In this document: positions 40,198-57,962 of the stretch, piece by piece
How positions within the stretch are numbered: position 1 is the first letter of the stretch
Layout: each line of letters begins with the position of its first letter
NCBI GenBank assembly: GCA_010672585.1
Contig: JAAHGF010000004.1
Coordinates: 442,873-506,872, forward strand
Length of the DNA stretch: 64,000 nucleotides
Reading direction: 5' to 3'
DNA from: Okeania sp. SIO1I7
GTDB lineage: Bacteria; Cyanobacteriota; Cyanobacteriia; Cyanobacteriales; Microcoleaceae
Translations under genes and position numbers: made by a program
The notes under the pieces: generated by a model
Database searches by the model: none
Told to the model about the DNA's origin: nothing
The model's input: the letters and a program-made list of their open reading frames with translations, nothing else

Positions 40198-41019
40198 CTA
40201 TTCTGTTTCGCCAAAGTTAATCAAGTCCAAAACTAATTTCGCTAACTCATCAGTTGCCCCAAGAGGTGGGGTCAGATGGAATTTAATAGCAGGGTATATT
40301 TGAGTAAATTGATTGACTGTATCAGCGATCACATCAGTAATACCTCCATTAAACAGAAAATAAGGTAAAATCCCAATTTTTCGATATCCTTGTCTTATTA
40401 ATATTTCAACCCTTGATTTCAGGTCAGGAGAAACAGACCAATAAGCAGTACAAACCAAAACTTGACAACAGCTTTCAAGAGACTGGGCTATTTTTTCCAC
40501 AGGGTCATTGCCACCAGGACTACGACTACCATGAGAAATAAGTACCCAAGCATCAGCAGTCACAGAAGTTACTTTAGGTGCAAGTAAACCTACCATTTCT
40601 GGATGGGAACCAATATAGGGACATAGAGTGATTTTAGTTTGGCTATAAGTTTCTGAGTTAATTTCAGATTTTGGGTTACTTTTTTCCCTTGCTTTAACTT
40701 TGTGCCTGAATACCTCTATTTCTGCTGGAATATCCTCTGTGACATGAACTCCTGGTAATAGAAATAAAGGTATAATTTTAACTTGATTAATGTAGAGCGA
40801 TCGCCTATATTCCCAAAAATCTTCAATTTGTTCGTGCAGAGATTTAAGCCCCAGTTCTAAAACTCCTGTACCAATCAAAGGATATTTGAGAATACAATTA
40901 CTTGTAAAACTTTCAGTTAAATTTATTTGTCTAGATAACAGTCCAGCTAGTGTCTGTAATTCTAGGAGCGGTCGTGGGTCACGACTACCATGAGATACTA
41001 AAAAATAGGTTGATAGCAA
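40198..41019 (-). CDS. two-half sirohydrochlorin chelatase (CbiX/SirB family)
   Basis: 273 residues, made of two homologous halves, each beginning with the metal-binding motif: LVSHGSRDPRP (residue 7 on) and LISHGSRSPGGNDPVE (about 156 on). It inserts Fe2+ (sirohaem) or Co2+ (cobalamin) into sirohydrochlorin. This is the long type, but without the His-rich tail known from some CbiX-L proteins. Other segments: PLFLLPGVHVTEDIPAEI and GILPYFLFNGGITDVIAD. The only suitable start is TTG at 41019, because the motif begins immediately after it. No sirohaem pathway gene is adjacent. Confidence 0.9.
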   Translation of the reverse strand: MLSTYFLVSHGSRDPRPLLELQTLAGLLSRQINLTESFTSNCILKYPLIGTGVLELGLKSLHEQIEDFWEYRRSLYINQVKIIPLFLLPGVHVTEDIPAEIEVFRHKVKAREKSNPKSEINSETYSQTKITLCPYIGSHPEMVGLLAPKVTSVTADAWVLISHGSRSPGGNDPVEKIAQSLESCCQVLVCTAYWSVSPDLKSRVEILIRQGYRKIGILPYFLFNGGITDVIADTVNQFTQIYPAIKFHLTPPLGATDELAKLVLDLINFGETE

Positions 41020-41606
41020 TTTTAACTTTGACCTAATTATTATAGATATATAAATATTAAGTAATTAAGTCAGGACTTACGCAACGGCACTAATTATACA
41101 GGTTACATTGGCAATAATGACCAAATCATACACTCTATGTAGCGGTACTGCGTAAGTCCTGTAAGTAATACTTTGGGAAAACTTTAATCTTGATTTAGTT
41201 AAAGATTTATGTATCTTCGTATACATTAACTCTATCAACTTTCTCTAGATATGGGGTCATTTCAGTTATCAGTTATTAGTTATTAGTTATCAGTACCTCT
41301 AGCTGTTTGCGCAGCATGACCTAGAAAAGCATTGGGATTGAAATCAGGAATAGTCTCTTTTTTTTATCCCTTGAAAAAGGGAGGCGCATACCCACAATTT
41401 TTCGGTAAAAGTCCAATCAATCCCTCTTAAATGAGTTAATTCTGTGTTGTCCAGTATCTCTGCAAATTGTTTAATAATAACACTTACTTTACGGCCAGTT
41501 AATATTGGTAACTCTATATAAAGATTAAGTCTTTTCGAGAAGAATCTGCTATGATTATATTAAATACCAATATACTTAAGTAGAAAACATACTAAGGAGC
41601 AAAAAA
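41020..41606. mobile_element. spacer with perfect AGGACTTACGCA element
   Basis: 41073-41163: ends 'caggacttacgca' and 'tgcgtaagtcctg' are perfect inverted repeats around about 65 bp. Tracts of 'agttatcagttattagttat' follow near 41260, shared with 15870. The last 100 bp presumably hold the promoter of the small-protein operon; 'tatgattatat' near 41550 is a possible -10 region. Confidence 0.65.
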
Positions 41607-41936
41607 ATGGCCAAACAAGACGTAAAAAGCGTTACCATACTTCAAAGTGATGATGATTTTGGCGGTCGTCCAGAAACTATCTATGGAAAGTCCCCAAAAA
41701 GTAACAAAAAGAAAAAGAAAAAGCAATCAAAAGGTTTGTCTGCTTTAGAAAAAAGTATATTCAAGATGGCGAAAATGAATGACAAGGCAAGCACAGAATA
41801 TCGCGAACGTCACGAAAAATCTAACAGAAAGAAGAAAAACGGTTGGATTAAAGATTTCTCCAAAAATTATAGCAAGGCTATGTCCAAGATGGGTGGAAGT
41901 GGAATGGGCTCAATGGGTATTAAGTTGTTTGAATAA
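41607..41936 (+). CDS. small lysine-rich protein A1
   Basis: 109 residues, function unknown. N-terminal strand-like SVTILQSDDDFGGRPETIYG, a lysine cluster (KSNKKKKKKQSKGLSALEKS), a helical stretch FKMAKMNDKASTEYRERHEK, then SNRKKKNGWIKDFSKNYSKA and a glycine/methionine-rich tail (MGGSGMGSMGIKLFE). No signal peptide or membrane segment. It has a paralogue, A2, directly downstream. 'ctaaggagcaaaaaa' is a strong ribosome binding site. From memory this looks like a Pfam domain of unknown function (DUF6312-like), unverified. Downstream are a second pair of small proteins, a glycosyltransferase and a PKS/NRPS locus, which suggests a linked role but does not show it. Confidence 0.75.
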   Translation: MAKQDVKSVTILQSDDDFGGRPETIYGKSPKSNKKKKKKQSKGLSALEKSIFKMAKMNDKASTEYRERHEKSNRKKKNGWIKDFSKNYSKAMSKMGGSGMGSMGIKLFE

Positions 41937-42042
41937 TTCAAATATGAATGCCAATTGGTAGAAAACCCAAATTACTAAGTTCCAAAGATAAATATCTACT
42001 TACACATATCGTTTAGTAGAAAATATTCAGAGGAGAAATAAA

Positions 42043-42366
42043 GTGGCTAAAGAAGAGATAAAAAGCGTTACTGTACTGCAAAGTGATGAAGATTTTGGCG
42101 GTAATCCATCAACTATCTATGGTAAATCAGCCAAAAAAAGAAAAAATAAAAAGAAAAAGCAGTCAAACGCTTTGAAGCCTTATGAAAAAGCTGTATTCAA
42201 AATGGCTAAAATGTACGATAAGGCAACCAAAGAATATCGTGAGCGTCACGAAAGATCTAACCGGAAGAAGAAAAACGGTTGGATTAAAGATTTCGCGAAA
42301 AACTACAGCAAGGCTATGTCCAAGATGGGTGGTTACGGCTACATGGGTATTAAATTGTTTGAATAA
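42043..42366 (+). CDS. small lysine-rich protein A2 (paralogue of A1)
   Basis: 107 residues from GTG 42043; the site 'cagaggagaaataaa' precedes it. Collinear with A1 over its full length; the segment RSNRKKKNGWIKDFAKNYSK and the LFE end are almost unchanged, while the region around residues 43-48 differs (NALKPY for KGLSAL). Cluster KKRKNKKKKQSN gives a strongly basic charge. The gene pair arose by tandem duplication (106-bp gap). Unknown function; a nucleic-acid- or polysaccharide-binding role is possible from charge alone. Confidence 0.75.
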   Translation: MAKEEIKSVTVLQSDEDFGGNPSTIYGKSAKKRKNKKKKQSNALKPYEKAVFKMAKMYDKATKEYRERHERSNRKKKNGWIKDFAKNYSKAMSKMGGYGYMGIKLFE

Positions 42367-42831
42367 TTAAAATATTAATACTGATGAGCAGAAAGCCCAA
42401 CTAACAGTGAAGAAAGTTTGACCACTTTCATATAAGTCTTAGACAAAGGGTATAAACCTGAATACTAGCTTTGATGTGTACAAGGTTTTAAGTGCAATGT
42501 ACTTTTAACATCACAATCAGTGAGACTTGGGAAAAAAGAGTCGAACTAAAGCAAAATCTTGATTTGCTAGATATTCCATATGTGGAGCAGGAAGCTTAGG
42601 TTATAGTCTAGTCCTGCTATTAGTAAGTTATGAGGAGTATGTTAAAAGTAAAAATTAATTGACATCATACTCCTCATACTTCTATTAATGAAGGGCAGGT
42701 TTGAGAGAGAATTTGTCAAACTAACTCAGGTAACACACAACCAATAACAGATGCAAGCAAAAAATAATTGCAGGCTTTTGGTAAAATTTCCCTTAGCAAT
42801 ATAATTAGTAAACATTAAGGAGGTCAAAAAA
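42367..42831. other. gene-free spacer between protein pairs A and B
   Basis: No gene or repeat family recognised. 'tcatactcctcat' near 42666 is the complement of 'atgaggagtatg' near 42629, giving a weak inverted repeat. Confidence 0.4.
42817..42824 (+). promoter_or_regulatory. perfect ribosome binding site for B1
   Basis: 'aaggaggt', 7 bases before ATG 42832, a full anti-16S match that is rare among the window's other genes. A1, A2 and B2 also have purine-rich sites, suggesting high translation of all four small genes. Confidence 0.7.
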
Positions 42832-43074
42832 ATGGTAATGTCATCCGATACCAGTGAAAAAAGTGGGAAGCAAAAAGCAAACACCGTTATTTTCGAGATT
42901 GGAGGGGCTAAGAGTGACGATATCGATGATTTGCGGAGAGGTGAGGGTAAGGTATTCAAAAAAATAGGCCAAACAATTGAACAACTAAAAGAATCAGGCG
43001 AAGTTTCGGATAACATACAGCCCATAATTGTTATTCTCAAGAAAAAGAAAAGTAAGAAAGGACTTTTAGACTAA
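42832..43074 (+). CDS. small basic-tailed protein B1
   Basis: 80 residues, function unknown. A beta-strand (NTVIFEIGG), an acidic patch with DDIDDLRRGEGKVF, a helix (IGQTIEQLKESGEV), a second strand (PIIVILK) and a lysine-rich end KKKKSKKGLLD. No signal peptide or membrane segment. B2 is a paralogue; 41 of 64 aligned residues agree by hand count. From memory it resembles a DUF6200-type family, unverified. An ATG-GTA-ATG start allows alternative initiation two codons later. Confidence 0.72.
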   Translation: MVMSSDTSEKSGKQKANTVIFEIGGAKSDDIDDLRRGEGKVFKKIGQTIEQLKESGEVSDNIQPIIVILKKKKSKKGLLD

Positions 43075-43178
43075 GAAGATTTTCTTACTATAGTTATAGT
43101 GAGTGTAAGTGTTGTAAGTGTCCTTTGAAAGTTTCATAACTTGAGTTATGATTGACTAATGAAATAATTTCTCGCTTG

Positions 43179-43201
43179 ACTTCGAGCATTATGCTCGAAG
43201 T
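43179..43201. terminator. hairpin after B1 (terminator or processing site)
   Basis: Perfect 10-bp inverted repeat acttcgagca / tgctcgaagt with a 3-base loop, followed only by 'tatgtatg', so without a strong T-run. It may be a weak terminator or an mRNA-stabilising structure between B1 and B2. Confidence 0.5.
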
Positions 43202-43356
43202 TATGTATGTTAGGTTAAATAGTTAGTGATTTTAGCTCCTAAACTTATTCTCCTAGTATCTAAGTAAGATGAGAAAAGGGCATGAGAACCAAAAATGAGA
43301 AAAATTTCTCTAGCAACAGTTAAATTAAGTAGTAAAAATTTAAGGAAAACACAAAA

Positions 43357-43566
43357 ATGACACAACAGGCCAACACCATTATTTTAGAAATGACTGGTGC
43401 AGATAAAGACGATATCAATGACTTACGGAATGGCGAAGGCAAGATATTCAGAAAAATACGCTCGATGATAGAACAGTTAAAACAACAAGGTGAAGTGGAT
43501 GAAAATGCACAGCCTGTAATTGCCATAGTACAGAAAAAGAAGGATAAAAAGGGACTCTTAGACTAG
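43357..43566 (+). CDS. small basic-tailed protein B2 (paralogue of B1)
   Basis: 69 residues. MTQQANTIILEMTG strand, DDINDLRNGEGKIFRKI, helix SMIEQLKQQGEV, strand PVIAIVQ and tail KKKDKKGLLD. The extra N-terminal 10 residues of B1 are missing. 'ttaaggaaaacacaaaa' precedes the ATG. It is followed after about 100 bp by a strong terminator, so the small-gene block probably ends here. Confidence 0.72.
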   Translation: MTQQANTIILEMTGADKDDINDLRNGEGKIFRKIRSMIEQLKQQGEVDENAQPVIAIVQKKKDKKGLLD

Positions 43567-43663
43567 AGAAATTAACACCTACGCAATGTACTAATTTTGC
43601 TTTCAAGTTCATAGCAAAATATCCTAACAGATAGAGTTGCGCTTTAAGTCCAAGAACAATTAA

Positions 43664-43704
43664 ATCAAGCCCCGCCTGTAGAGTGAGGGCTTGATATTTT
43701 TTTT
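43664..43704 (+). terminator. rho-independent terminator
   Basis: Stem atcaagccc (43664-43672) pairs with gggcttgat (43687-43695), loop about 14 bases, followed by eight T (43697-43704). It separates the small-protein genes from the glycosyltransferase, which should have its own promoter. Confidence 0.85.
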
Positions 43705-43787
43705 ACTTAAGGTAAATAATTTTTTTTATGTAAAGATGTATCAAAATCCCTTATACTACTTAAGAAATTATAGTTCAAGTTGATAAC

Positions 43788-44981
43788 GTGAACATACTAT
43801 TAGTCTGCACAGAAAAGTTACCAGTGCCTTATGTCCGAGGTGGAGCTATCCAGACATACATAGACGGTATTCTACCTTACTTGAAACGAGAGCATGAAAT
43901 CACAGTATTCTCCATAGCAGATCCAGAATTGCCAGATCGAGAAATTAGAGACAATATTCGTTATGAGCGTACTGCAGCAAACACTTCAGAAGAATACTAT
44001 CAAACTGTAGCCAAATTTGTAGAAGGGAAAAATTTTGATTGGATCGTAATTTACAATCGTCCAAAATATGTGTCCTTAGTGGCTAAAGCAGCCCCAAATA
44101 GTCGCTTTCTACTTAGTATGCACAACGAAATGTTCCATGCTAAAAAAATCGAACCACAAGAAGCAATTAAATGCCTGGAACGAGTAGAAAAAGTAGTGAC
44201 AGTTAGCAAATTTATTGCTGATGGTATTGCCAAATTATTTCCAGAATATAAACACAAACTTCAACCTGTATATGCTGGAGTAGACCTCAAACGCTTTCAG
44301 CCAAGGTGGGCGGAAGGTGCAAAAGAGAAACGAGAAGCAATGCTAGCGACTTATGGCTTGGAAGGCAAAAAAGTAGTCCTTTGCGTGGGCAGGTTGACAG
44401 ATAAAAAAGGACCTCATCTATTAATATCTGCGATCGCCAAAGTAATAGAAAAACACCCATCTGCGGTATTATTTTTAGTAGGCAGTAAATGGTACGGAAA
44501 TAACAAAGAAAACGATTATGTCCGTGAAATTAAAGCAGAAGCAGAAAAGTTAGGCCAAGCAGTTCAGATGACAGGTTTTATTCCACCATCTGAAGTTGCA
44601 GATTATTTCTTATTAGGTAATATATTTGTATGTGCATCTCAATGGGAAGAACCTCTAGCTAGGGTACATTACGAAGCCATGGCAACTGGCCTATGCACTA
44701 TTACCACTGCTAGGGGGGGGAACCCTGAAGTAATTATTCCAGAGAAAAATGGTATCATAATCACAGATTATGAAAATCCGGATGCGTTTGCAGAGCAGAT
44801 AGATTACTTGTTGTCTAGACCAAAGGAAAGTGAAGAAATGGGAAGAACAGGACGTCAGCTGGCCGAATTATATTATAGTTGGTCAAGGGTTGCTTGGGAT
44901 ATTTTGAGTATTATTAATGATTCAAAATCAATGCCTTTAGAGACACTGGGACTAATAGAGCAAGATAAAGAAGCAGGATAA
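43788..44981 (+). CDS. GT4-family glycosyltransferase, CotSA-like
   Basis: 397 residues from GTG 43788. GT-B fold: N-terminal LLVCTEKLPVPYVRGGAIQ, SMHNEMFHAKKI, VVTVSKFIADGI, nucleotide-sugar part CVGRLTDKKGPHLLISAI and EEPLARVHYEAMATGL, then ARGGNPEVI. The domain order and these motifs closely match, from memory, Bacillus subtilis spore-coat glycosyltransferase CotSA, an unexpected relative in a cyanobacterium. It retains the E-x7-E pair expected of GT4 retaining enzymes. Likely cytosolic. It precedes the PKS genes by about 100 bp on the same strand, so it could modify the polyketide or an extracellular polymer. Confidence 0.88.
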   Translation: MNILLVCTEKLPVPYVRGGAIQTYIDGILPYLKREHEITVFSIADPELPDREIRDNIRYERTAANTSEEYYQTVAKFVEGKNFDWIVIYNRPKYVSLVAKAAPNSRFLLSMHNEMFHAKKIEPQEAIKCLERVEKVVTVSKFIADGIAKLFPEYKHKLQPVYAGVDLKRFQPRWAEGAKEKREAMLATYGLEGKKVVLCVGRLTDKKGPHLLISAIAKVIEKHPSAVLFLVGSKWYGNNKENDYVREIKAEAEKLGQAVQMTGFIPPSEVADYFLLGNIFVCASQWEEPLARVHYEAMATGLCTITTARGGNPEVIIPEKNGIIITDYENPDAFAEQIDYLLSRPKESEEMGRTGRQLAELYYSWSRVAWDILSIINDSKSMPLETLGLIEQDKEAG

Positions 44982-45080
44982 ATTGAAGCTGATTTTTCCA
45001 TACCAAATTCAGGTGGATAAAGATTAGGAATCAGGCCTTAAAAGCTAGAATAATGATGAATATTTGTATTGGTTGATTTT

Positions 45081-48000
45081 ATGAAGGAACAAAAAAAGAG
45101 CGGCCTAACAGCTATTATTGGCATTTCTTGTAGATTTCCTGGAGCAGATGACTATAATCAGTTCTGGAAAAATATGGAGGTAGGAGTAAATAGCATCAGT
45201 GAAATTCCTTCCCAAAGGTGGGAAGTAGAAAAGCATTATTCTCCTGTTCCTAATAAACCAAATAAGACTATTAGTAAGTGGGGAGGATTAGTAGAAGGTA
45301 TAGATGAGTTCGATGCATATCTTTTTAATATTTCTCCCAGAGAAGCAGAAAAAGTAGACCCACAACATAGAATTATGTTGGAATTGAGCTGGTCTTGTAT
45401 AGAAGATGCAGGTTACTCACCATCTCAACTTTCGGGAAAAAATGTAGGTGTTTTTATGGGGGCGTGCAACTATGACTCTATTCTATTGATGAACCGAAAT
45501 CAAGACAATGTAGAAGGTCATAGTGGAACAGGAACTTGGACTTGTATGATTCCCAACCGCATCTCTTCATTTTTTAATCTGCACGGCCCAAGCATTCCAA
45601 TTGATACAGCTTGTTCAAGCTCACTGGTAGCTATTCATTACGCGCTTAAATCCCTCAAAGAATCAGAATGTGAAATGGCATTGGTAGGTGGGATAAGCGT
45701 GTTATTCACGTCAACAACATACATCCAGATGAGTCAACTGGGGATGTTGTCTCCCACAGGACAATGTAGAACATTTAGTAGTGACGCTGATGGTTATGTG
45801 AGGGGAGAAGGAGCAGGAGTAGTTTTATTAAAGCCTCTGGCCAAAGCAATAGAAGATGGCGATCGGATTTATGGTGTAATTCAAGGGAGTGCAGTTAATC
45901 ACGGAGGTAAAGCGAGAACTATAACATCTCCCAATGTCTACGCCCAAGCTCAAGTAATTCGTGCAGCCTATACTAAGGCAAATATTTCTCCGGATACAGT
46001 ATCTTATATAGAATCTCATGGAACAGGCACACCATTGGGAGACCCGATAGAAATTAATGCTTTGAAAAGAGCCTACAGACAACTGTATCAGCAGTATGGA
46101 GTAGAAAAAACAGAGAAACCCTATTGTGGTATAGGAGCAGTAAAAAGTAATATAGGGCATTTAGAAGGAGCAGCAGGAATTGCTGGATTAATCAAAGTCT
46201 TATTAGCGATGAAGTACAAAAAGCTGCCCAAAATTGTCAACTTTAAGGAATTAAATCCACGCATTAGTTTTAAAGATACTCCTTTTTACCTCATAGAGGA
46301 AACTCAAGAGTGGAAACGATTAAAAAATGAATCAGGAGAAGAGATTCCAAGACGTGCAGGTTTAAGTTCCTTTGGTATCGGGGGTGTCAATGCTCATATT
46401 GTATTAGAAGAACCCCTAGAAGAAGAAATCAAAATTCAAAAGCGAGTGCTAATTGGCGAGGCGTCCTCAGAATTTAAGACGCACTCAAGAAAGTCAAAAG
46501 TTAAAAGTGATAGTCTAGATCGTCCACAAGAGATTTTAACCCTCTCAGCACAGACAGAGAAAGCAGTGAGGGAACTAGCAAAAAAATATCAAACTTATTT
46601 ACAATCAAAAACTGAAGCATCGCTACAAGATATATGCTTCAGTGCTAGTAGAGGGCGGACGCATTTTGCAGAAAGACTGGCAATAGTAGCAGAGTCAAAT
46701 AGTGATTTAGAGCAAAAATTAGCAGATTTTCTTGAGGATAATGAGACAAACGGAGTTGTAATAAGAGGAAAAGCACAAAATCAGGAAAAGGATATTGCTT
46801 TTCTATTCACAGGTCAGGGGTCTCAGTATATAGATATGGGACGACAGTTATATGAAACTCAACCCACATTTCATAAAATTATAGACCAGTGCAATGAAAT
46901 TCTGAAAAAATATCTAGAAATTCCTCTGTTAGAAGTTATATATCCTAAAGAGGCACAAAAGTCAAGTACCTCTTTAATAGACCAAACAGCTTATACTCAG
47001 CCTGCTCTATTTGCCATAGAATATGCTCTAGGAAAGTTATGGGAATCATGGGGAATCAAACCAAGTGTGGTAATGGGTCACAGTGTAGGAGAATATGTGG
47101 CTGCTTGCATCGCAGGAGTATTCAGTTTAGAGGATGGTCTGAAATTAATCGCCATACGGGGACGGTTAATGCAACAGTTACCCTCCGGTGGAGAGATGGT
47201 ATCTGTAATGGCATCAGAATCTCTGGTAACAGAGGCTATAAAAGAATATAATTCCCAAGTAACAATAGCAGCAGTTAATGGACCCGAAAGTATAGTAATT
47301 TCAGGTGAGAGTAAAGCCATAGGAAATATTTGTAACAAATTAGAATCAGACGGAATTAAGACTAAGCAGCTACAGGTATCCCATGCTTTCCATTCCCCAT
47401 TAATGGAACCAATATTAACAGAATTTGAAGAAGTGGCCAAACATGTCTCCTATAATGAACCAAAAATACCACTAATATCAAATGTTACAGGTAAAGAAGT
47501 AGGTGCAGAAATAACCACTGCTGAATATTGGGTGGGTCATGTGCGTCAACCAGTCAGATTTGCCCAGAGTATGAAAACTCTAGAAGAGCAAGGAGATGAA
47601 ACATTCCTGGAAATCGGACCTAAGCCAATATTGTTAGGAATGGGAAGGCAATGTGTAACAGAAGACATAGGAGAATGGTTGCCCTCATTACGTCCGGGAG
47701 TGGATGAGTGGCAACAAATGCTATCAAGCTTAGGAAAATTGTATGTAAAAGGAGTAAAAATAGATTGGTCAGGGTTTGACTCCGACTATAGTCGTCAGAA
47801 AGTAGCATTGCCTACATATCCATTCCAACGGGAACGTTATTGGGTAGAAACTAACAACAACTTCTGTCCTCAACAGCAATTTTCCCAAGGGGAAAACCTC
47901 CATCCCCTATTAGGTCAAAAGCTAAATTGTGCAAGCGAACAACAAATATTTGCATCACAAATAGCAGAAAACTCACCCAACTATCTGAAGGACCACCGAG

Positions 48001-51000
48001 TATTTAATCAAGCACTATTTCCCACAACAGGCTACCTAGAAATAGCAATAGCAGCAGGAAATCACCAATTAAAAACATCCGAGATAGTAATAGAAGACCT
48101 AACCATAACTAGAGGATGGATACTACCAACAGGAGAATTGACAAATGCCCAAACCATACTCACCCCAACAGACAACCAAAGCTATAAGTTTCAAATATTT
48201 TCTCAACAACCAGAACAACAAGAGTGGAGACTCCACACCACAGGAAAAATTAGAAAAGAGTCAACCCCCCCTACTCAAACAAAAATTGACCTAGAAAAAT
48301 ACAAGAACGAATGTAATCAAGCAATAGAAGTCAAACAACATTATCAAAAATCTCAAGAAGTAGGGATAGACTACGGGAATACCTTCCAAGGCATTCAAGA
48401 ATTGTGGTCAGGTTCAAACCAAGCATTAGGTTATATCAAACTCCCCGAAGAATTGATAACAGAAACAGGGGAGTATAATTTTCATCCAGCACTATTAGAT
48501 GCAGCCTTGCAAGTAATGTCTCATGCACTGCCAGAAACGGATAATGACAAAACTTATCTGCCAGTAGGAATAGAAGAATTCAGAGTATATAAGAATCCAG
48601 GGCTGAGTATATGGGCTTACGCATCAGTAATCAGTCACGAAGTGGAAACTCCAGAAAGTTTGACTACTATTATCACCATAGTAACCCCTTCAGGAGAAAT
48701 AATTGCCAACCTCAAAGGTTTACAACTCAAACTAGCAAAACAACAGACCCTACTGGGAGCAGAGACAGAATCAATAGAAAATTGGTTGTATGAAGTAGAG
48801 TGGAGAAACAAGGGTATTTTCGGTAAACTACTACCACCAGATTTCCTCATACCTCCTATAGAAATTAACCAAAAATTAACTCCAACTCTGACAGAATTAG
48901 TAACTCAGGTAGATAATGAAAAAAGTGCGTCTGCTCAAACAAGTTTAGAAGAATTAAGCAGAGATTATATAGTCCAAGCATTGCAGGAGATGGGTTGGTC
49001 ATATAAACCAACAGAAAGCTTTGCATTTGATGCAACTGCCCAAAAATTAGGTATAGTTCCTACCCATCGACCACTATTTAAGCGTTTGCTGCAAATATTA
49101 ACAGAGTCAGGGATACTCAAGTATAATCAGCAGCAGTGGGAAGTAGCACAAACCTTAGCTGAAGTCAAGCCCCGTGAAAAAATCAGCAGTTTACAGAATC
49201 AATATCCAGAAGAAACAGCAGCATTCACACTACTCGAACGTTGTGGTTCTAAACTAAGTGGGGTATTACGAGGAGCAATAGACCCAGTAGAGTTAGTCTT
49301 CCCCCAAGGAGATTTAACGACAGCAACTCAACTTTATGAAGAGTCAAAAGTAGCGAAAGTGATGAACACAATAGTAGAAAAATCCATCACCAAAGCTCTA
49401 GAAAAATTACCCAAAAGCCGAGGGGTCAGGTTGTTGGAAATAGGAGCGGGAACAGGAGGTACCACAAGCTATATTCTACCTCATCTAAATCCTCAGCAAA
49501 CCGAATATATATTCACGGATATAGGGGCATTATTTACAGCCAAAGCTCAAGAGAAATTCCGGGATTATAAGTTCATAAAGTATCAAACTTTAGACATAGA
49601 AGTAGACCCGAAAAGTCAAGGATTTGAGTCTAATCAATATGATGTAATTATTGCAGCTAATGTACTTCATGCAACTACAGATATGAAGCAGACATTATCT
49701 CATGTGCGAGAACTGTTAGCAGATGGGGGGATGTTGGTGTTATATGAAGCAACAGCTAAAAGCAAATGGCTAGATTTAATATTTGGGTTGTTAGAAGGAT
49801 GGTGGAAATTCAGTGATTATGAATTACGACTAGATTATCCTTTGTTGAGTAGAGAAAAATGGCATCATGTGTTGAGAGAAACGGGTTTTAGAGAAGTAGT
49901 TACGATGCCAGAAGTGGAGGGAATGGCAGAAACATTGTCAGAGCAAACGGTAATTGTAGCCAAAGCAAGTTCAACAACCTTAGAACAAACTCAGGAGAAA
50001 ACTAAAGGTTGGTTAATACTAGCAGACCAAAAGGGAATAGGTCAACAGTTAGCGAAAAAACTCAAGTCATTAGGAGAAGTTTGTACCTTAGTATATACAG
50101 GAGAAAAGTATCAACAGATAGCTACTGAAGAATTTACGATTAATCCCAACAACCTAGAAGAATTTGAGGAAGTAATCAAGACAGTAGCAGGGAAATCACC
50201 ATCATTATATGGAGTAGTACAATGTTGGACGACAGAAGCAGGAGTAGGTCAAGGGATTAATTCTCAGGAATTAGAAAAATTATCGCAGTTAGGTTGTGGC
50301 ACGACCTTATCATTAGTACAAGCATTGGTGAAAGCAGGGTTATCAACGGTACCGAGATTATGGTTGGTGACAGTAGGTGCTCAAGCTGTACCTTCAAAGA
50401 ATCCGGTAATACCAGGAGTAGCTCAATCTTCGGTGTGGGGAATGGGAAAGGCAATTAGTTTAGAACACCCAGAATTAAACTGTACTCGTATAGATTTAGA
50501 CCCACAGGAAAGTAGAGAGGATCAAGGAGATGCACTATTTAATGAAATTTGGTCAGAGGATGGCGAAGACCAGGTAGCAAGGCGTGGAGATGGTCGTTAT
50601 GTAGCTCGATTGGTGGCCAGTCGTCATCAGCAACCAGTGGCACAACATACGACTCAAAAGCCTTTAAGTTTCCGTTCGGAGGCTAGCTATTTGATTACAG
50701 GAGGTATGGCAGGTTTGGGTTTACTGGTAGCTAGTTGGATGGTGTCTAAGGGTGCTCAACATTTAGTCTTGTTAGGACGCCGTTCACCGGATGATGCTAC
50801 GAGAAAAAAAATAACAGAGTTGGAGATGGCAGGAGCAGAAGTGATAGTGGAAAAGGCCGATGTGTCTGATTGGGAATCGATGAGAGGTGTGTGGCAGAGG
50901 ATTGAGGAATCAAACCGACCATTAGCAGGAGTGATTCATTCAGCAGGAATGTTATCAGATGGAGTGCTACAAAACCAGAGTTGGTCTAGTTTTGAGCAGG

Positions 51001-51872
51001 TGATGGCACCGAAAGTACAAGGTGGTTGGCACTTGCATCAATTGACTCAAAATCAATCATTGGACTTTTTTGTGCTGTTTTCTTCGGCAGCATCTCTGTT
51101 TGGTTCACCAGGTCAGGGAAATCATTCAGCAGCGAATGCTTTCCTTGATGGTTTGGCCAATTATCGTCGTGTTCAGGGTTTGCCGGGATTGAGCATTCAT
51201 TGGGGTGCTGTTTCTCAAGTGGGAGAAGCAGCAGAGCGAGGTGCAGATATGAGGGCAAGTAAGCAGGGGATGGGTGTAATATCTCCGAGTCAGGTATTGG
51301 AGTCTTTAGAACTATTGATCAGTGGTTCGGATGTGGAAGTAGGGGTGGTCCCTATTGAGTGGTCAGGGTGGCAGGAGAAATTGGCACAATGGCCGTTTTT
51401 GGCGGATTGGCAGGAAACTATACTGGAGGTTGCAGAACCATCGAAGTCAGATTTTCTGTTAAAGTTAGAGGCCGCAGTACTCAGTGAGCGTCGCTCGTTA
51501 TTAGTGGCTCATGTGCGTCGTCAGGTAGCTCAAGTATTGGGAATTAATCATCCTGAATCAATTGCCTTGGAAACAGGGTTTTTTGACTTGGGTATGGATT
51601 CTTTGACTTCTGTGGATTTGAGGAATAAGTTGCAAAGTAGCTTGAAGTGTTCACTTTCATCTTCTCTAGCTTTTAATTATTCTACAATTAATAAGCTGGT
51701 AGATTACTTAGCTGAACAATTAAACTTAATAGATGCTAAAGAAGATACTGAGTTGCGATCGCCTGACTTATCTGAAGAAAATTCATCCGAGTTATCAGAG
51801 GCAAGTCCACTCACAGAAGAATTAGAAGCATCAGTTCTTCAAGCAATTGAGAAATTAGAAAAATTAATCTAA
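45081..51872 (+). CDS. type I polyketide synthase module KS-AT-DH-cMT-KR-ACP
   Basis: About 2263 residues from ATG 45081, chosen over an upstream TTG at 45069. KS (about 10-430; [12 protein letters not shown] Cys near 178, ESHGTGTPLGDP, SNIGHLEGAAG); AT (about 570-910; [19 protein letters not shown], which predicts malonyl-CoA); DH (about 940-1220; KDHRVFNQALFPTTGYLE, catalytic Asp in FHPALLDAALQVM); cMT (LLEIGAGTGGTTSYILPHL near 1451); KR (TGGMAGLG near 1870); ACP (FFDLGMDSLTSVDLRNKL near 2170). No ER, so one alpha-methyl-alpha,beta-unsaturated extension is predicted. No loading domain precedes the KS. The acidic C-terminal tail (ELEASVLQAIEKLEKLI) looks like a docking helix. First of four collinear assembly genes. 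Confidence 0.93.
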   Translation: MKEQKKSGLTAIIGISCRFPGADDYNQFWKNMEVGVNSISEIPSQRWEVEKHYSPVPNKPNKTISKWGGLVEGIDEFDAYLFNISPREAEKVDPQHRIMLELSWSCIEDAGYSPSQLSGKNVGVFMGACNYDSILLMNRNQDNVEGHSGTGTWTCMIPNRISSFFNLHGPSIPIDTACSSSLVAIHYALKSLKESECEMALVGGISVLFTSTTYIQMSQLGMLSPTGQCRTFSSDADGYVRGEGAGVVLLKPLAKAIEDGDRIYGVIQGSAVNHGGKARTITSPNVYAQAQVIRAAYTKANISPDTVSYIESHGTGTPLGDPIEINALKRAYRQLYQQYGVEKTEKPYCGIGAVKSNIGHLEGAAGIAGLIKVLLAMKYKKLPKIVNFKELNPRISFKDTPFYLIEETQEWKRLKNESGEEIPRRAGLSSFGIGGVNAHIVLEEPLEEEIKIQKRVLIGEASSEFKTHSRKSKVKSDSLDRPQEILTLSAQTEKAVRELAKKYQTYLQSKTEASLQDICFSASRGRTHFAERLAIVAESNSDLEQKLADFLEDNETNGVVIRGKAQNQEKDIAFLFTGQGSQYIDMGRQLYETQPTFHKIIDQCNEILKKYLEIPLLEVIYPKEAQKSSTSLIDQTAYTQPALFAIEYALGKLWESWGIKPSVVMGHSVGEYVAACIAGVFSLEDGLKLIAIRGRLMQQLPSGGEMVSVMASESLVTEAIKEYNSQVTIAAVNGPESIVISGESKAIGNICNKLESDGIKTKQLQVSHAFHSPLMEPILTEFEEVAKHVSYNEPKIPLISNVTGKEVGAEITTAEYWVGHVRQPVRFAQSMKTLEEQGDETFLEIGPKPILLGMGRQCVTEDIGEWLPSLRPGVDEWQQMLSSLGKLYVKGVKIDWSGFDSDYSRQKVALPTYPFQRERYWVETNNNFCPQQQFSQGENLHPLLGQKLNCASEQQIFASQIAENSPNYLKDHRVFNQALFPTTGYLEIAIAAGNHQLKTSEIVIEDLTITRGWILPTGELTNAQTILTPTDNQSYKFQIFSQQPEQQEWRLHTTGKIRKESTPPTQTKIDLEKYKNECNQAIEVKQHYQKSQEVGIDYGNTFQGIQELWSGSNQALGYIKLPEELITETGEYNFHPALLDAALQVMSHALPETDNDKTYLPVGIEEFRVYKNPGLSIWAYASVISHEVETPESLTTIITIVTPSGEIIANLKGLQLKLAKQQTLLGAETESIENWLYEVEWRNKGIFGKLLPPDFLIPPIEINQKLTPTLTELVTQVDNEKSASAQTSLEELSRDYIVQALQEMGWSYKPTESFAFDATAQKLGIVPTHRPLFKRLLQILTESGILKYNQQQWEVAQTLAEVKPREKISSLQNQYPEETAAFTLLERCGSKLSGVLRGAIDPVELVFPQGDLTTATQLYEESKVAKVMNTIVEKSITKALEKLPKSRGVRLLEIGAGTGGTTSYILPHLNPQQTEYIFTDIGALFTAKAQEKFRDYKFIKYQTLDIEVDPKSQGFESNQYDVIIAANVLHATTDMKQTLSHVRELLADGGMLVLYEATAKSKWLDLIFGLLEGWWKFSDYELRLDYPLLSREKWHHVLRETGFREVVTMPEVEGMAETLSEQTVIVAKASSTTLEQTQEKTKGWLILADQKGIGQQLAKKLKSLGEVCTLVYTGEKYQQIATEEFTINPNNLEEFEEVIKTVAGKSPSLYGVVQCWTTEAGVGQGINSQELEKLSQLGCGTTLSLVQALVKAGLSTVPRLWLVTVGAQAVPSKNPVIPGVAQSSVWGMGKAISLEHPELNCTRIDLDPQESREDQGDALFNEIWSEDGEDQVARRGDGRYVARLVASRHQQPVAQHTTQKPLSFRSEASYLITGGMAGLGLLVASWMVSKGAQHLVLLGRRSPDDATRKKITELEMAGAEVIVEKADVSDWESMRGVWQRIEESNRPLAGVIHSAGMLSDGVLQNQSWSSFEQVMAPKVQGGWHLHQLTQNQSLDFFVLFSSAASLFGSPGQGNHSAANAFLDGLANYRRVQGLPGLSIHWGAVSQVGEAAERGADMRASKQGMGVISPSQVLESLELLISGSDVEVGVVPIEWSGWQEKLAQWPFLADWQETILEVAEPSKSDFLLKLEAAVLSERRSLLVAHVRRQVAQVLGINHPESIALETGFFDLGMDSLTSVDLRNKLQSSLKCSLSSSLAFNYSTINKLVDYLAEQLNLIDAKEDTELRSPDLSEENSSELSEASPLTEELEASVLQAIEKLEKLI

Positions 51873-51956: not shown

Positions 51957-54900
51957 ATGAATCGAAAAGAAACACAAGAAAAACAACAATTACATTCTAC
52001 TGTAGATTTAGAAAGGGCGCTTAAAGCTCTCAACAAAGCATACTCCAAACTAGAAAAATACGAAAATCAAAGCAAGGAACCAATCGCTATCATTGGTATG
52101 GGTTGTCGTTTGCCTGGAGGTGCATCTACTCCTGAAGCCTTCTGGGAACTTTTACAAAATGGAGTAGATACTATTACTGAAGTGCCACCAGACCGATGGC
52201 CTATTAGTAAATATTATGACTCTGACCCTACAACTCCCGGTAAAATCTATACTCGTTATGGAGCCTTTGTTGAGCAAATACAGGAGTTTGATGCTAGTTT
52301 TTTTGGTATTTCTCCTAAAGAAGCAATTCATCTAGACCCTCAACAGCGATTACTTCTAGAAGTTACTTGGGAAGCCTTAGAGCATTCTGCTACAAATCCA
52401 CAAAAACTGATGGAAACTCAAACAGGCGTATTTATTGGTATTAGTAGCAACGACTATTTTCAAAATATATTAAGTCAAGGTATTGAAAAAATTGATGCTT
52501 ACTCAGGTTTAGGTAATGGCAACAGTATAGCATCAGGGCGAATATCTTATATTCTCGGGCTTAAAGGTCCTAGTTTAGCAGTAGATACAGCTTGCTCTTC
52601 TTCTTTAATAAGTACTCATTTAGCTTGTTCAAGTCTGAGGAATCGAGAGTGCAACTTGGCTTTAGCAGGAGGGGTACATCTATTAATGTCTCCAGAGATC
52701 ACAATCAACTATTGTAAAGCAAAAATGTTGTCAGCGGATGGTCGTTGTAAGACTTTTGATGCTACGGCAGATGGATTTGGCCGTGGTGAAGGTTGTGGTA
52801 TGATTGTCCTCAAACGTTTGTCGGATGCGCTCTCAGACAAAGATAATATCCTAGCAGTGATTCGGGGTAGTGCAACCAACCAAGATGGAAATAGTAGTGG
52901 ATTAACAGTTCCTAATGGTTCATCTCAACAAGCATTGATTCGTCAAGCTTTGGAAAATGGAAGAGTAGAACCAGCTAGTGTGAGTTATCTAGAGGCTCAT
53001 GGTACAGGCACATCTTTGGGAGATCCCATTGAAGTGGAAGCAATGGGAGAAGTATTTGAAGCAACTCATTCTCAACAAAAACCTTTAATTATTGGTTCAG
53101 TCAAAACTAATATTGGTCACTTGGAGTCAGCAGCAGGAATTGCTGGTTTAATCAAAGTGGTATTACAACTGCAAAATCGACAAATTGCACCATCCCTACA
53201 TTTTAATCAGCCGAATCCTTATATAAATTGGGATCAGTTACCAGTACAAGTATCAGCCAAGATACAGCCTTGGCAGGTAAATAATCAAAGTCGTATCGCA
53301 GGTATCAGTTCTTTTAGTATAGGTGGCACCAATGCTCATATTGTTTTAGAAGAAGCACTCTCTCAAGTCAAAAGTGAGAATGTTGTTGAACGTCCAATTC
53401 ATATATTAACTCTGTCAGCCAAAACAGAAAAGGCTCTTGCTGATTTGGTCAATGCTTATCAGAGTTATTTAGAAAATGATAATGACTTAGGGGATATTTG
53501 CTACACAGCCAACATTGGGAGAGCAGAATTTGCTCATAGATTAGCTCTGATTACTTCTGAGAAAAAAGATTTAGTAGAGAAACTAAAACAATACAAACAG
53601 GGAGAGAATTTTACTGGCATCTGTTCAGGACGACTAACGAACAAAACTACGACTAAAATAGCCTTTATGTTCACTGGGCAGGGGTCTCAGTATGTAGATA
53701 TGGGACGACAATTATACGAGACTCAACCCACATTTCAGAAAATTCTAGACCAATGCAATGAAATACTGAAAGAATATTTAGAAGTACCTCTATTAGAAGT
53801 TATATACCCTAAAGATGCACAAAAGTCAAGTTCTGATTTATTAGACCAAACAGCTTATACTCAACCAGCTTTGTTTGCCATAGAATACGCCCTAACTAAA
53901 TTATGGTATTCATGGGGAATTAAGCCTAGTGTGGTCATGGGTCACAGTGTAGGAGAATATGTCGCAGCTTGTGTGGCAGGAGTATTCAGTCTGGAGGATG
54001 GTCTCAAACTAATAGCCATGCGGGGCAAGTTGATGCAACAGTTACCCTCCGGTGGTGAAATGGTATCTGTAATGGCATCAGAATCTCAGGTAACAGAGGC
54101 CATAGGCGAGTATAGTTCAAAGGTGACAATAGCAGCGATAAATGGACCTGAAAGTACCGTGATTTCAGGTGAAACAGAAGCAGTGGCAACCATTTGTAGT
54201 AAGTTAGAAGCAATGGGAGTTAAGACCAAGCAGCTACAAGTTTCCCATGCCTTCCATTCCCCATTAATGGAACCAATGTTAGCAGAATTTGAAACAGTAG
54301 CCAAAGAAATCACCTATAATAAACCGACAATACCACTAATATCAAATGTGACAGGAGAAAAAGTAGGTGGGGAAATAACCAATGCGGAATATTGGGTAAC
54401 TCATGTACGTCAACCAGTAAAATTTGCTCAGAGTATGAAAACTCTAGAGTCGGAAGGATATGAAACCTACCTAGAAATAGGACCGAAACCAATATTGTTG
54501 GGAATGGGAAGGCAATGTGTAAAAGAAGGAGTGGGAGAATGGTTGCCATCATTGCGTCCAGGAGTAGATGAATGGCAGCAAATGTTGGACAGCTTAGGAA
54601 AATTGTATGTAAAAGGAGCCAAAGTAGACTGGTTAGGGTTTGATTCAGATTATGCTCGTCAGAAAGTAGTGTTGCCGACTTATCCATTCCAGAGGGAAAG
54701 ATATTGGATAGAAACTTCTGAAAAAATGGGGGTTATTGGGTCGGAAAATGGTAGCTCCCAGATTTTGAGTTTACTTGAAGGATCAGAAATAGAGACATTA
54801 GCTCAAGAACTTGAAAGAGTAGGAAATCTTTCCCCTAGTGAAGTTAAGTTACTGCCTAAACTACTGGAACTGCTAGTTAAACAGCATCAGCAGCAACTGA

Positions 54901-57900
54901 CAGGAGCGAGTATTAAAGATTGGCTTTACTCAGTTGAATGGAAAGTTAAGGCACGCTTTGGTAGACGACTGCCAAAGGAGAATTTGTTAACAGCTACGGA
55001 AGTAGAGCAGCGGTTAGACCAAATGATCGCAGAACTTGTGAATACGGCTTCTATAGAAAATAATAGCTTTAGGGAAATTTCTAACATTTTCCAAGAACTA
55101 AGTAGGGAGTATATAGTACAAGCATTGATTGATTTAGGATGGGAATATAAGGTAGACGAGTGCTTCTCTACTGATACTGCTTGCCAACAGCTAGGCATAG
55201 TTCCCAGCTATAAAAAACTCTTCAACCAAATGCTACGAATAATAGCTGAAACTGGAGTTTTACAGTCAAGTGCGCAGCAGTGGCAAGTGCTACAAGGGTT
55301 AGGGGAAGTCAAACCTGCTCAAAGAAATCAAGCTCTAATGACTCAATATCCTGATTTCTTAACGGAATTAACTCTACTGAATCTTTGTGGAACTAAACTA
55401 AGTGAGGTATTGCTCGGTAGGCAAGACCCATTAGAATTGATTTTCCCAGAAGGAGATTTAACCAATGCCACGAAATTGTATCAAGAATCGACTGTAGCTA
55501 AGGTGATGAACGCTATAGTGCAACAGGTGATAATTGAGGCCAATGAGAGGTTGCCTAAACATCAAGGCATACGCTTACTAGAAATTGGAGGTGGTACGGG
55601 TGGAACAACAAGTTCTGTTCTACCACATTTGAATCCAGATAGTACAGAATATGTGTTTACGGATATTGGGACACTATTTATCAGCAAGGCACAAGAAAAA
55701 TTTCGCGATCGCCCGTTTGTGCGCTATCAACAACTGGATATAGAAGTAGACCCATTAAATCAAGGATTTGAGTACGAACAGCAGGATATAATTATTGCAG
55801 CCAACGTACTCCATGCGACTAAGGATTTACGTCAAACCTTACAAAATGTGCGAAAATTGTTAGCTCCTGGAGGAATTTTGGTGTTATGGGAAGTAACTGC
55901 TCCTCAAGAATTGCTAGATTTAACATTCGGATTATTAGAAGGATGGTGGAGATTCCAGGATTATGAATTACGCCCAGACTATCCTCTTTTAAGTCGAGAA
56001 AAATGGAAACAATTGCTCGGTGAAGTTGGTTTTACTGATGTAGTTAGTTTGCCAGATATTGAGGGTCTTCCCGAAGTTTTATCTCAACAAACAGTGTTTG
56101 TTGCTGAAGCAGATAGGAAAAGTTTAAAACTAACATCATCAGAAAGCCAGAATTGGTTGGTACTAGCAGACAAAGAAGGAATTGCTAAACAAGTAGCTAC
56201 CAAACTCCACTCAGAGGGAGATATTTGTACTTTAGTGTTTGCTGGAGAAAAATATCAACAGATAGCTCCGACAGAATTTATCATTAATCCTGAAAATCAA
56301 GATGATTTCTATCAACTGATAACAACGATAACAACCAAAACTCCATTGTTTCATGGAGTTGTGCAATGTTGGACAACAGATGCAGGATTGAAGGAGTCTA
56401 TAAGCTCCCAAGAATTAGAAAATTTATCTATATTTGGGTGTGGTACTACCCTGTATTTAGTGCAGGCTTTAGTTAAAGCAGAGTTATCTAAATTACCTCG
56501 GTTATGGTTGGTGACTTCTGGTGCTCAACCAGTACCGTCAAATCATCCGACAATATCAGAAATAACTCAGTCTACACTTTGGGGAATGGGAAAAGTAATT
56601 AGCTTAGAACACCCAGAATTAAACTGTACTCGTATAGATTTAGACCCAGACACCGCTATAGAAGACAGAGCTAATGCACTATTTAGTGAAATATGGTCGG
56701 AGGATAAGGAAGACCAGGTAGCATGGCGTGGAGATGATCGTTATGTGTCGCGATTGGTATCTAGTAATCACCAGCAATTAGTTGCTACAACTCAGAAACC
56801 TTTAAGTTTCCGCTCGGATGCTAGCTACGTGATTACAGGAGGTTTGGGAGGTTTGGGTTTATTGGTAGCTCGTTGGATGGTGGATAAAGGAGCCAAGCAT
56901 TTAGTCTTAGTTACAAGACGCGAACCGGATGATACTGCCAGTCAAAAACTCACAGAACTAGAAATGGCAGGAGCAGAAGTAGTTGTAGAAAAAGCAGATG
57001 TGTCATCATTGGCAGCAATGACAGAGGTGTTAAACAGGATTGAGAACTCAAACCAACCATTAGCAGGAGTGATTCATTCTGCGGGTATGTTATCAGATGG
57101 AGTGCTACAAAACCAGAGTTGGTCTAGTTTTGAGCAGGTGATGGCACCGAAAGTGAAAGGTGGTTGGAATTTGCATCAATTGACTCAAAATCAACCATTG
57201 GACTTCTTTGTACTATTTTCTTCGGCAGCATCTCTATTAGGTTCCCCTGGTCAGGGAAATCATTCAGCAGCGAATGCTTTCCTTGATGGTTTAGCACATT
57301 ATCGTAGTGTTCAGGGTTTGCCGGGATTGAGTATTCATTGGGGTGCTGTTTCTCAAGTGGGAGAGGCAGCAGAACGAGGTGCAGATGTGAGGGCAAGTAA
57401 GCAGGGAATGGGTACAATCTCGCCCGAGAAGGTGTTAGAGTGCCTGGAATTACTGATGAGTGGCTCTGATGTAGAAGTAGGGGTCGTACCTATTGAGTGG
57501 TCACAGTGGCAGGAAAGAGTAGCACAGTGGCCTTTCTTGGCAAATTGGCAGGAAAGGACGACTTCAATAACTACAGATCAAACTCAAGATGACACCTTAT
57601 TGGAAAAACTAAAATATTCTCCTCAGAGCGATCGCAAAAATATCTTAATTGCTCATATTCAAAATCAAGCTGCTCGGGTTCTGGGAATAACTGATAATCA
57701 GATAGATTTACAAATACCTTTAAATGAAATAGGACTAGATTCTCTAATGGCATTAGAACTAAGGAATCGAATTTTAAATGATTTACAGGTCGATATTCCT
57801 ATTACCAGTTTTATGGAAGGAATAACCATTACTGCTCTCTCAAATCAACTCAATCAACAACTGACTCAAAGCTATCAAGAACCAGCTATTGAGTTAGACG

Positions 57901-57962
57901 AGCAGGAACAAGTAGAACCTAATAATATTGAAAATAGTAACTGGATAGAGGTGGAACTATGA
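51957..57962 (+). CDS. type I polyketide synthase module KS-AT-cMT-KR-ACP
   Basis: 2001 residues. An N-terminal docking coiled coil ([19 protein letters not shown]) precedes KS (about 42-470; [12 protein letters not shown] Cys near 214), AT (about 570-905; [19 protein letters not shown]), a linker with [20 protein letters not shown], cMT ([19 protein letters not shown] near 1207), KR (TGGLGGLG near 1625) and ACP ([18 protein letters not shown], serine near 1928). No DH, so an alpha-methyl-beta-hydroxy extension is predicted. AT, cMT and KR are close relatives of the first PKS. The acidic C-terminus ends in [13 protein letters not shown], a likely docking peptide for the next protein. Its stop overlaps the next ATG by 4 bp. 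Confidence 0.93.

Follow-up and report, generated by a model that had tools for sequence, protein, structure and literature searches.

What are four very small proteins for, when their genes stand in two tandem pairs ahead of a glycosyltransferase gene and a polyketide assembly line? This question is raised by a stretch of 64,000 nucleotides (hereafter, the window; G000:C44:442873-506872) from the 9.48 Mb genome of the cyanobacterium Okeania sp. SIO1I7, which we refer to as G000. The members of the first pair, A1 (41607-41936, 109 amino acids (aa), ATG start, net charge +16) and A2 (42043-42366, 107 aa, GTG start, net charge +17), belong to the Pfam family DUF6312 (PF19831), with scores of 129.6 and 134.9 bits against a cut-off of 27 bits (E 5.6e-38 and 1.2e-39); the members of the second pair, B1 (42832-43074, 80 aa) and B2 (43357-43566, 69 aa), belong to DUF6200 (PF19702), with scores of 92.7 and 75.8 bits against a cut-off of 26.9 (E 1.1e-26 and 2.1e-21). 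All four genes are on the forward strand, and Pfam lists both families without any function.

We have found that A, B and one subtype of UbiB/ABC1 kinase are inherited together in cyanobacteria, and that in three phyla their genes are mostly neighbours. This gene association is solid; the mechanism, the binding, the location and the product are what we infer from it. We give an even chance to the reading that A and B are paired adaptor modules of a conserved system centred on the UbiB/ABC1-type ATPase (in Okeania sp. SIO1I7, G000:C36:68195-69973); this hints at an as yet undescribed way to organise how lipophilic natural products are handled.

Association of A and B with a UbiB/ABC1 kinase

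Profile searches with DUF6312 and DUF6200 have been conducted in 386 cyanobacterial genomes, where DUF6200 matches eight genomes (seven over the Pfam cut-off) and DUF6312 matches six (five over the cut-off); DUF6200 is present in all five of the genomes that have DUF6312 over the cut-off. A scan of 84,980 species for DUF6312 has given at least 12 loci, i.e. nine cyanobacterial, two from Polyangium and one from Thalassobaculum; DUF6200 was found in 10/10 of the genomes that were searched among these, and the other two have DUF6200 too. In the phylum of Polyangium, DUF6200 matches 9 of 235 genomes (eight over the cut-off), and in the phylum of Thalassobaculum one of 349, namely Thalassobaculum itself; with so few carriers per phylum, both families are rare and patchy. 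Matches below the Pfam cut-off (G146 and G628 for DUF6200, G337 for DUF6312) have not been counted, nor has an open reading frame (ORF) of G033 (L046:8258-8563), which was suspected by eye to be DUF6312 and has no Pfam match.

The surroundings of the genes have been mapped with nine profiles that were built for this analysis and run on the called ORFs of long stretches. The 22 mapped loci are those with a free DUF6312 ORF; six of them, all myxobacterial, were found through DUF6200, and one (G320:C237) holds a DUF6312 fragment only, in two pieces. The gap between A and B is 26-984 bp at 22/22 of these free-A loci, which come from cyanobacteria, myxobacteria and one alphaproteobacterium, with identities to the window copies of 30-45% for A and of 18-33% for myxobacterial B. 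An earlier note on this DNA had named the independent occurrence of A and B as an observation that would speak against a common system; this objection fails, although some copies of B occur without A: A is paired with B throughout. One of these copies, in G398, just passes the cut-off (28.7 bits) and was left out of the 22 loci, since it has no detected A; an ABC1K-type gene lies about 3 kb from it.

The most constant partner outside A and B is a UbiB/ABC1 kinase. With the UbiB protein of the Tolypothrix locus as the query, at E<=1e-60, 14/14 cyanobacterial carriers of A and/or B have been matched, versus 0/20 non-carriers; among the 14, G033 and G045 carry DUF6200 alone over the cut-off, with a kinase that is 37% identical, and the match of Okeania SIO2F4 is cut by a contig end. 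At E<=1e-80, the query matches 3 of 199 genomes (G000, G033 and G045), all of them DUF6200 carriers; this draw of 199 genomes we take to be a subset of the 386. The kinase gene is located at most 1.3 kb from A/B at 13 of the 22 loci and 32 kb from them in Trichodesmium (G320:C241), and the protein of Okeania sp. SIO1I7 is 63% identical to the query. The earlier note had counted A, B, the glycosyltransferase and the polyketide synthase (PKS) among the partners, and to these our comparison adds the kinase, which was invisible there because it is encoded on another contig in Okeania sp. SIO1I7. In the myxobacterial genome G613, two tandem ABC1-type kinases (L101, 13604-17746) have been seen by eye beside DUF6200 and a DUF6312-like ORF, with no ketosynthase (KS) in the 20 kb that were read.

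The Okeania sp. SIO1I7 kinase belongs to the ABC1 family, with a domain score of 206.7 bits against a cut-off of 22.9 (E 4e-61). In an alignment of nine sequences, which leaves out the Okeania sp. SIO1I7 copy, we find the motifs K.GQ (8/9), an alanine-rich loop (8/9), H[AG]D.HPGN (9/9) and D.G (8/9), which we take to be UbiB/ABC1 family signatures; the protein usually starts around IPTPL and, by eye, has hydrophobic C-terminal segments. The partner scores below the cut-off of the UbiB equivalog model TIGR01982 (261.2 against 487.55 bits) and far below that of the MABP-1 model NF050082 (111.9 against 800 bits, E 3e-32), and the best PDB match of the alignment is 5yjz (E 8.7e-43), listed as a probable ATP-binding protein and presumably MABP-1 itself. 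Judged from these comparisons, the partner kinase is a distinct UbiB subfamily.

The likeness to MABP-1 in both searches introduces a rival explanation, self-protection or storage, in which the ATPase, together with A and B, would bind a finished polyketide or lipid in order to sequester or detoxify it, instead of contributing to its synthesis. MABP-1 of mycobacteria is also a UbiB-like ATPase, which has been crystallised with the polyketide erythromycin and binds it (excerpts of PMC6208485), and which gives macrolide resistance (excerpts of PMC6208485 and PMC8696161); PKS genes, moreover, are neighbours of A/B. The partner, however, scores higher with the UbiB model (261 bits) than with the MABP-1 model (112 bits); MABP-1 is said, in an excerpt, to lack transmembrane regions, unlike the hydrophobic C-terminal segments seen here by eye, and no A/B are known with MABP-1. 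The system also occurs at loci where no KS has been detected, and self-protection leaves unexplained both the A/B tails of lipases and laminin-G proteins and the GT4-family glycosyltransferase (GT4), so that we regard it as unlikely.

The patchiness of the two families (DUF6312 in 5/386 cyanobacterial genomes, DUF6200 in 8/235 genomes of the Polyangium phylum) could alternatively reflect a mobile island, i.e. co-inheritance without a functional link, to which we give very little credence: the UbiB gene (in Symploca, also the GT4 gene) is kept even on another contig, the same A-B pairing is seen in three phyla at the identities given above, A and B are fused to other proteins, and neither A2 nor B2 has a match among the phage and plasmid records (50,697 and 72,556, respectively). 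In PHROGs no match has been found for A2, B1 or B2, and in PADLOC none for A2 or B2, with only weak kinase-domain matches for the UbiB protein; a phage, plasmid or defence origin of A/B is rejected given the absence of such matches.

Predicted structures, C-terminal tails and lipid-related neighbours

The AlphaFold2 model of B1, which is of good confidence (mean pLDDT 80.4), has the order strand-helix-helix-strand, and not the strand-helix-strand fold that had been proposed before; a fold search of this model against the PDB has given no significant match (best E 2.3). In the low-confidence model of A2, helices are placed at residues 46-75 and 79-96, and the N-terminal half, with its lysine tract, has little predicted structure; the conserved core of A, from 18 aligned sequences, reads ...RHE.SN.KKK.GW..D..KN.... 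The PDB sequence search has found no credible relative of A or B: the highest-ranking matches, to designed helical proteins, cover 20-25 residues with E as low as 9e-5, and the others have E >0.09. The weak resemblance of A1 to the ribosomal protein L20 (E 0.13), the lysine clusters and the short helical build would suit a protein that binds RNA or DNA and regulates the adjacent cluster; we consider this improbable, as A/B also form the C-terminal ends of lipases and laminin-G proteins, and accompany the UbiB gene even at loci without a nearby KS.

In seven long ORFs, B stops 0-3 residues before the C-terminus: four are lipases (from G213, Roseofilum, Trichodesmium and Okeania SIO2F4), one is a 1084-residue ORF of Tolypothrix, and two are laminin-G proteins (G033 and G045). 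A, for its part, occurs at the very C-terminus of six laminin-G proteins (from G213, Roseofilum and UBA2566), and is shortened in two of them, one from G213 and one from Roseofilum. Pfam has confirmed 7 of the 13 tailed ORFs, with 8 scanned, i.e. the B tails of the lipases of G213, Trichodesmium and Okeania SIO2F4 and the DUF6200 end of the Tolypothrix ORF, as well as the A tails of the short laminin-G protein of G213 and of one laminin-G protein from each of Roseofilum and UBA2566; for G033, laminin-G is clear and the DUF6200 tail narrowly misses the cut-off (25.9 against 26.9). Two further ORFs (G539 and G569) have uncertain starts and have not been counted as tailed.

C-terminal targeting tags on unrelated enzymes are also used by encapsulin cargo and by type 9 secretion. 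What they share with A and B is that unrelated enzymes end in one small module; unlike those tags, A and B are also free tandem proteins, and have no relative of known function by sequence, nor, for B, by fold.

Other lipid-related neighbours of the loci are untagged lipases and a patatin. Proteins with a Lipocalin_5 domain recur near the UbiB or A/B genes, according to Pfam (L126, 201-653; L129, 3986-4468; L037, 691-1179) and, in one case, by eye (G213:C148:33840-34868); at L126 they are accompanied by untagged lipases. The Lipocalin_5 proteins are probable further members of the system.

Since A is highly basic and the genes are surrounded by lipases, laminin-G modules, Lipocalin_5 proteins and a patatin, it may be asked whether A/B are structural proteins that coat a lipid droplet, a granule or an envelope layer, with GT4 glycosylating the surface, an explanation close to the surface-layer role of the earlier note; an ABC1 kinase of Nostoc punctiforme has been suggested to be associated with lipid droplets (excerpts of PMC7660261). 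By eye, no signal peptide is seen in the window copies of A and B, GT4 has not been found at the nine loci outside cyanobacteria, and tails on enzymes are more easily understood as a means of recruitment than as part of a bulk coat; the surface-layer or coat role is thus not borne out, and we rate the structural explanation as unlikely, slightly more so than self-protection.

Polyketide synthases, the glycosyltransferase and the window

A KS is located at most 15 kb from A/B in 9 of the 12 carrier genomes and at 10 of the 22 loci, several of which are on short contigs; an over-representation of PKS genes near A/B is thereby supported. Two of the three KS-negative genomes, Okeania SIO2C9 and Symploca, have a mapped flank of 8-10 kb only. 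From the KS counts of the 12 carriers, the upper bound of the chance that a random spot lies within this distance of a KS is 2-17% per genome, which gives P = 2e-9 when the genomes are treated as independent; this value overstates the case, because the carriers are related and by descent amount to about five PKS contexts (Okeania/Trichodesmium, Roseofilum, Tolypothrix, Polyangium and Thalassobaculum), with G033 (B only) as a sixth. The P values calculated for co-occurrence are weakened by relatedness in the same manner. Compared with the first KS next to A/B in Tolypothrix, Trichodesmium and two Okeania, the KS of PKS 1, the first PKS of the window, shows 75-94% identity, and its identity to the remaining KS of the set does not exceed 48%; the PKS therefore seems to be inherited with the system. 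A distance of 2.8 kb separates the UbiB gene of Okeania SIO3I5 from the end of a PKS that has a terminal reductase; a Lipocalin_5 gene lies in between.

In Okeania sp. SIO1I7, according to Pfam, a 1591-aa AMP-binding/KR/carrier/thioesterase protein is located about 4 kb from the UbiB gene and runs into the contig end; this protein might be part of the window's pathway. An LCM methyltransferase is situated between the two (G000:C36:72830-78678; L125).

The GT4 gene of the window (43788-44981, forward strand, 397 aa, Pfam Glycos_transf_1, E 4.7e-39) follows the small genes. At E<=1e-60, it matches 5 of the 386 cyanobacterial genomes, which are the same five that have DUF6312 over the cut-off, and GT4 is at most 9.4 kb from A/B at 12 of the 13 cyanobacterial loci; at the 13th, in Symploca, a GT4 of the same N-terminal sequence stands beside the UbiB gene, with A/B elsewhere. 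In the mapped stretches of the myxobacterial and alphaproteobacterial loci, GT4 has been found at 0/9, and it thus looks like an accessory. That A, B and the glycosyltransferase form one system, as the earlier note proposed, applies to the cyanobacteria, where all five genomes also hold B, and not to the other loci; in its cyanobacterial form, the system has GT4 as a dedicated component. The proposed kinship with the spore-coat protein CotSA of Bacillus is not supported beyond a shared GT4 type in our comparisons, in which CotSA itself was not compared: the top-scoring NCBIfam models describe an LPS GlcNAc transferase and a glycogen synthase, both far below their cut-offs, and in the PDB a phosphatidylinositol-mannoside mannosyltransferase matches best.

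The rest of the assembly line, also on the forward strand and read from Pfam, consists of PKS 1 (45069-51872; KS-AT-DH-MT-KR-ACP), PKS 2 (51957-57962; KS-AT-MT-KR-ACP), a nonribosomal peptide synthetase (NRPS; 57959-61405; TubC docking-C-A-PCP) and the start of a second NRPS (61405-63033), which has a Condensation domain only and whose sequence stops where the adenylation domain would begin. By eye, no PKS/NRPS continuation follows this second gene in the ORFs up to G000:C44:546000, and the assembly line in the window may be incomplete.

The gene arrangement described earlier, i.e. four real genes in two tandem pairs, followed by a GT4 gene and a PKS-NRPS line, is upheld by the ORF positions, by Pfam and by the ratios of nonsynonymous to synonymous substitution (dN/dS). 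A1 and A2 are 77% identical, and B1 and B2 62%; dN/dS is about 0.10-0.31 over six pairs (A1, A2, B2 and GT against Okeania SIO2C9, A1/A2 and B1/B2), with about 0.26 for A1 against Okeania SIO2C9 and about 0.3 for B2. Chance ORFs are ruled out by the Pfam E values of 1e-21 to 1e-39, together with this purifying selection, and the gene order in the flank of Okeania sp. SIO2C9 is the same as in the window. By eye, each of the four small genes is preceded by a purine-rich stretch, as had been noted. The strong terminator that had been placed at the end of the group is also found: after B2, on the forward strand, a hairpin followed by 8 T (43664-43708) has a fold energy of -17.2 kcal/mol (z -5.27; 0/200 shuffles fold as well). 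A consensus terminator scan of the same strand missed this hairpin, probably because its stem is bulged. With a terminator between B2 and GT4, the small genes and the GT-PKS genes are probably on separate transcripts.

Several other features of Okeania sp. SIO1I7 have been observed in passing. Upstream of A1, at 41071-41161, two exact 13-base arms separated by 65 bases form an inverted repeat, which is MITE-like by eye. The DUF6200 genes of this genome sit near cobalamin/sirohydrochlorin-like genes, probably by coincidence: a CbiX-like gene in the window (40198-41019), with NCBIfam matches below the cut-off, and by eye a CbiG-like gene (G000:C1:2999-5092) near the second-site DUF6200. At 13812-15848 of the window, by eye, a vanadium-haloperoxidase-like PAP2 protein carries C-terminal calcium-binding repeats.

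A possible role for A and B around the UbiB ATPase

In the adaptor reading, free A, which is basic and probably part disordered and part helical, and free B, with its compact beta-alpha-alpha-beta fold, would bind one another, the UbiB protein or both, on an acidic membrane or lipid surface, forming an assembly platform, to which A- or B-tailed lipases and lectin-like proteins would be recruited via the same modules. The UbiB ATPase would then extract or present a lipophilic intermediate, often a polyketide, as proposed for COQ8, and GT4 would glycosylate the product in cyanobacteria. COQ8 activity has been proposed to extract hydrophobic intermediates from membranes (excerpts of PMC10376127), and the way in which Coq8 organises its biosynthetic complex is described as still mysterious (excerpts of PMC7263595). 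UbiB/COQ8 of the coenzyme Q synthome, as a complex-organising ATPase, is our model for a partner with an ABC1 domain and UbiB-type motifs; unlike it, the partner is a distinct subfamily that goes with A/B, and no COQ partners have been seen at the loci read. The ABC1 kinases of plant plastoglobules and of Nostoc lipid droplets are similarly linked to lipid particles, and A/B are not mentioned with them in the excerpts of PMC7263595 and PMC7660261.

Several observations weigh against the adaptor reading. The UbiB gene and A/B are on different contigs in Okeania sp. SIO1I7, in three Okeania metagenome-assembled genomes (MAGs), in Trichodesmium MAG_R02 and in Symploca, although short contigs may explain some of these splits; in G569, A and B are present with no UbiB gene within the 20 kb that were read. 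DUF6200 occurs without a detected A at a second site of Okeania sp. SIO1I7 (G000:C1, 5220-5429), in G360:C90, in Okeania SIO2C9:C271 and at Symploca C1b, as well as in G613, G033, G045 and G398, and in Okeania SIO2F4 (C1351) it occurs, again without a detected A, as a lipase tail only. Three copies of B (two in Symploca, one at G360 C90) seem by eye to be led by a signal peptide and therefore fit a purely cytoplasmic scaffold poorly. The mean pLDDT of the A2 model is low (62.8). Finally, no KS has been found at G360 (36 and 16 kb of flank), G607 C42 (10 and 29 kb), G452 (10 and 18 kb) and Okeania SIO2C9 (10 and 8 kb); the substrate, therefore, need not be a polyketide, which would be a frequent, not an obligatory, substrate. 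Signal-peptide-like starts of DUF6200 have been noted at L108 (9504-10253, Symploca) and L045 (17884-18150, G360), possibly from an exported version.

A more specific form of the adaptor reading, which we put forward as doubtful, is that A/B are at once a self-assembling platform around the UbiB ATPase, i.e. a bacterial synthome for lipophilic natural products, and a C-terminal address tag of an undescribed targeting type, by which lipases and lectin-like proteins would be directed to this platform, in cyanobacteria, myxobacteria and an alphaproteobacterium. The combination was said by the earlier note to be undescribed, and this agrees with the literature that was searched: texts on UbiB/AarF and natural-product clusters had nothing on an A/B system, texts on Trichodesmium and Okeania products had nothing on this locus, and in 5.39 million openly licensed papers neither the name DUF6312 nor DUF6200 was found.

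What makes A and B more interesting than an ordinary pair of DUF families is their phyletic lock with one UbiB subtype, together with their use as tails. UbiB proteins are widespread, and a UbiB subtype that is tied to two tiny partner families offers a simple, testable case; DUF6312 and DUF6200 gain a context, as well as becoming a handle for finding unusual natural-product loci, and A/B are possibly a new short tag for the recruitment of enzymes.

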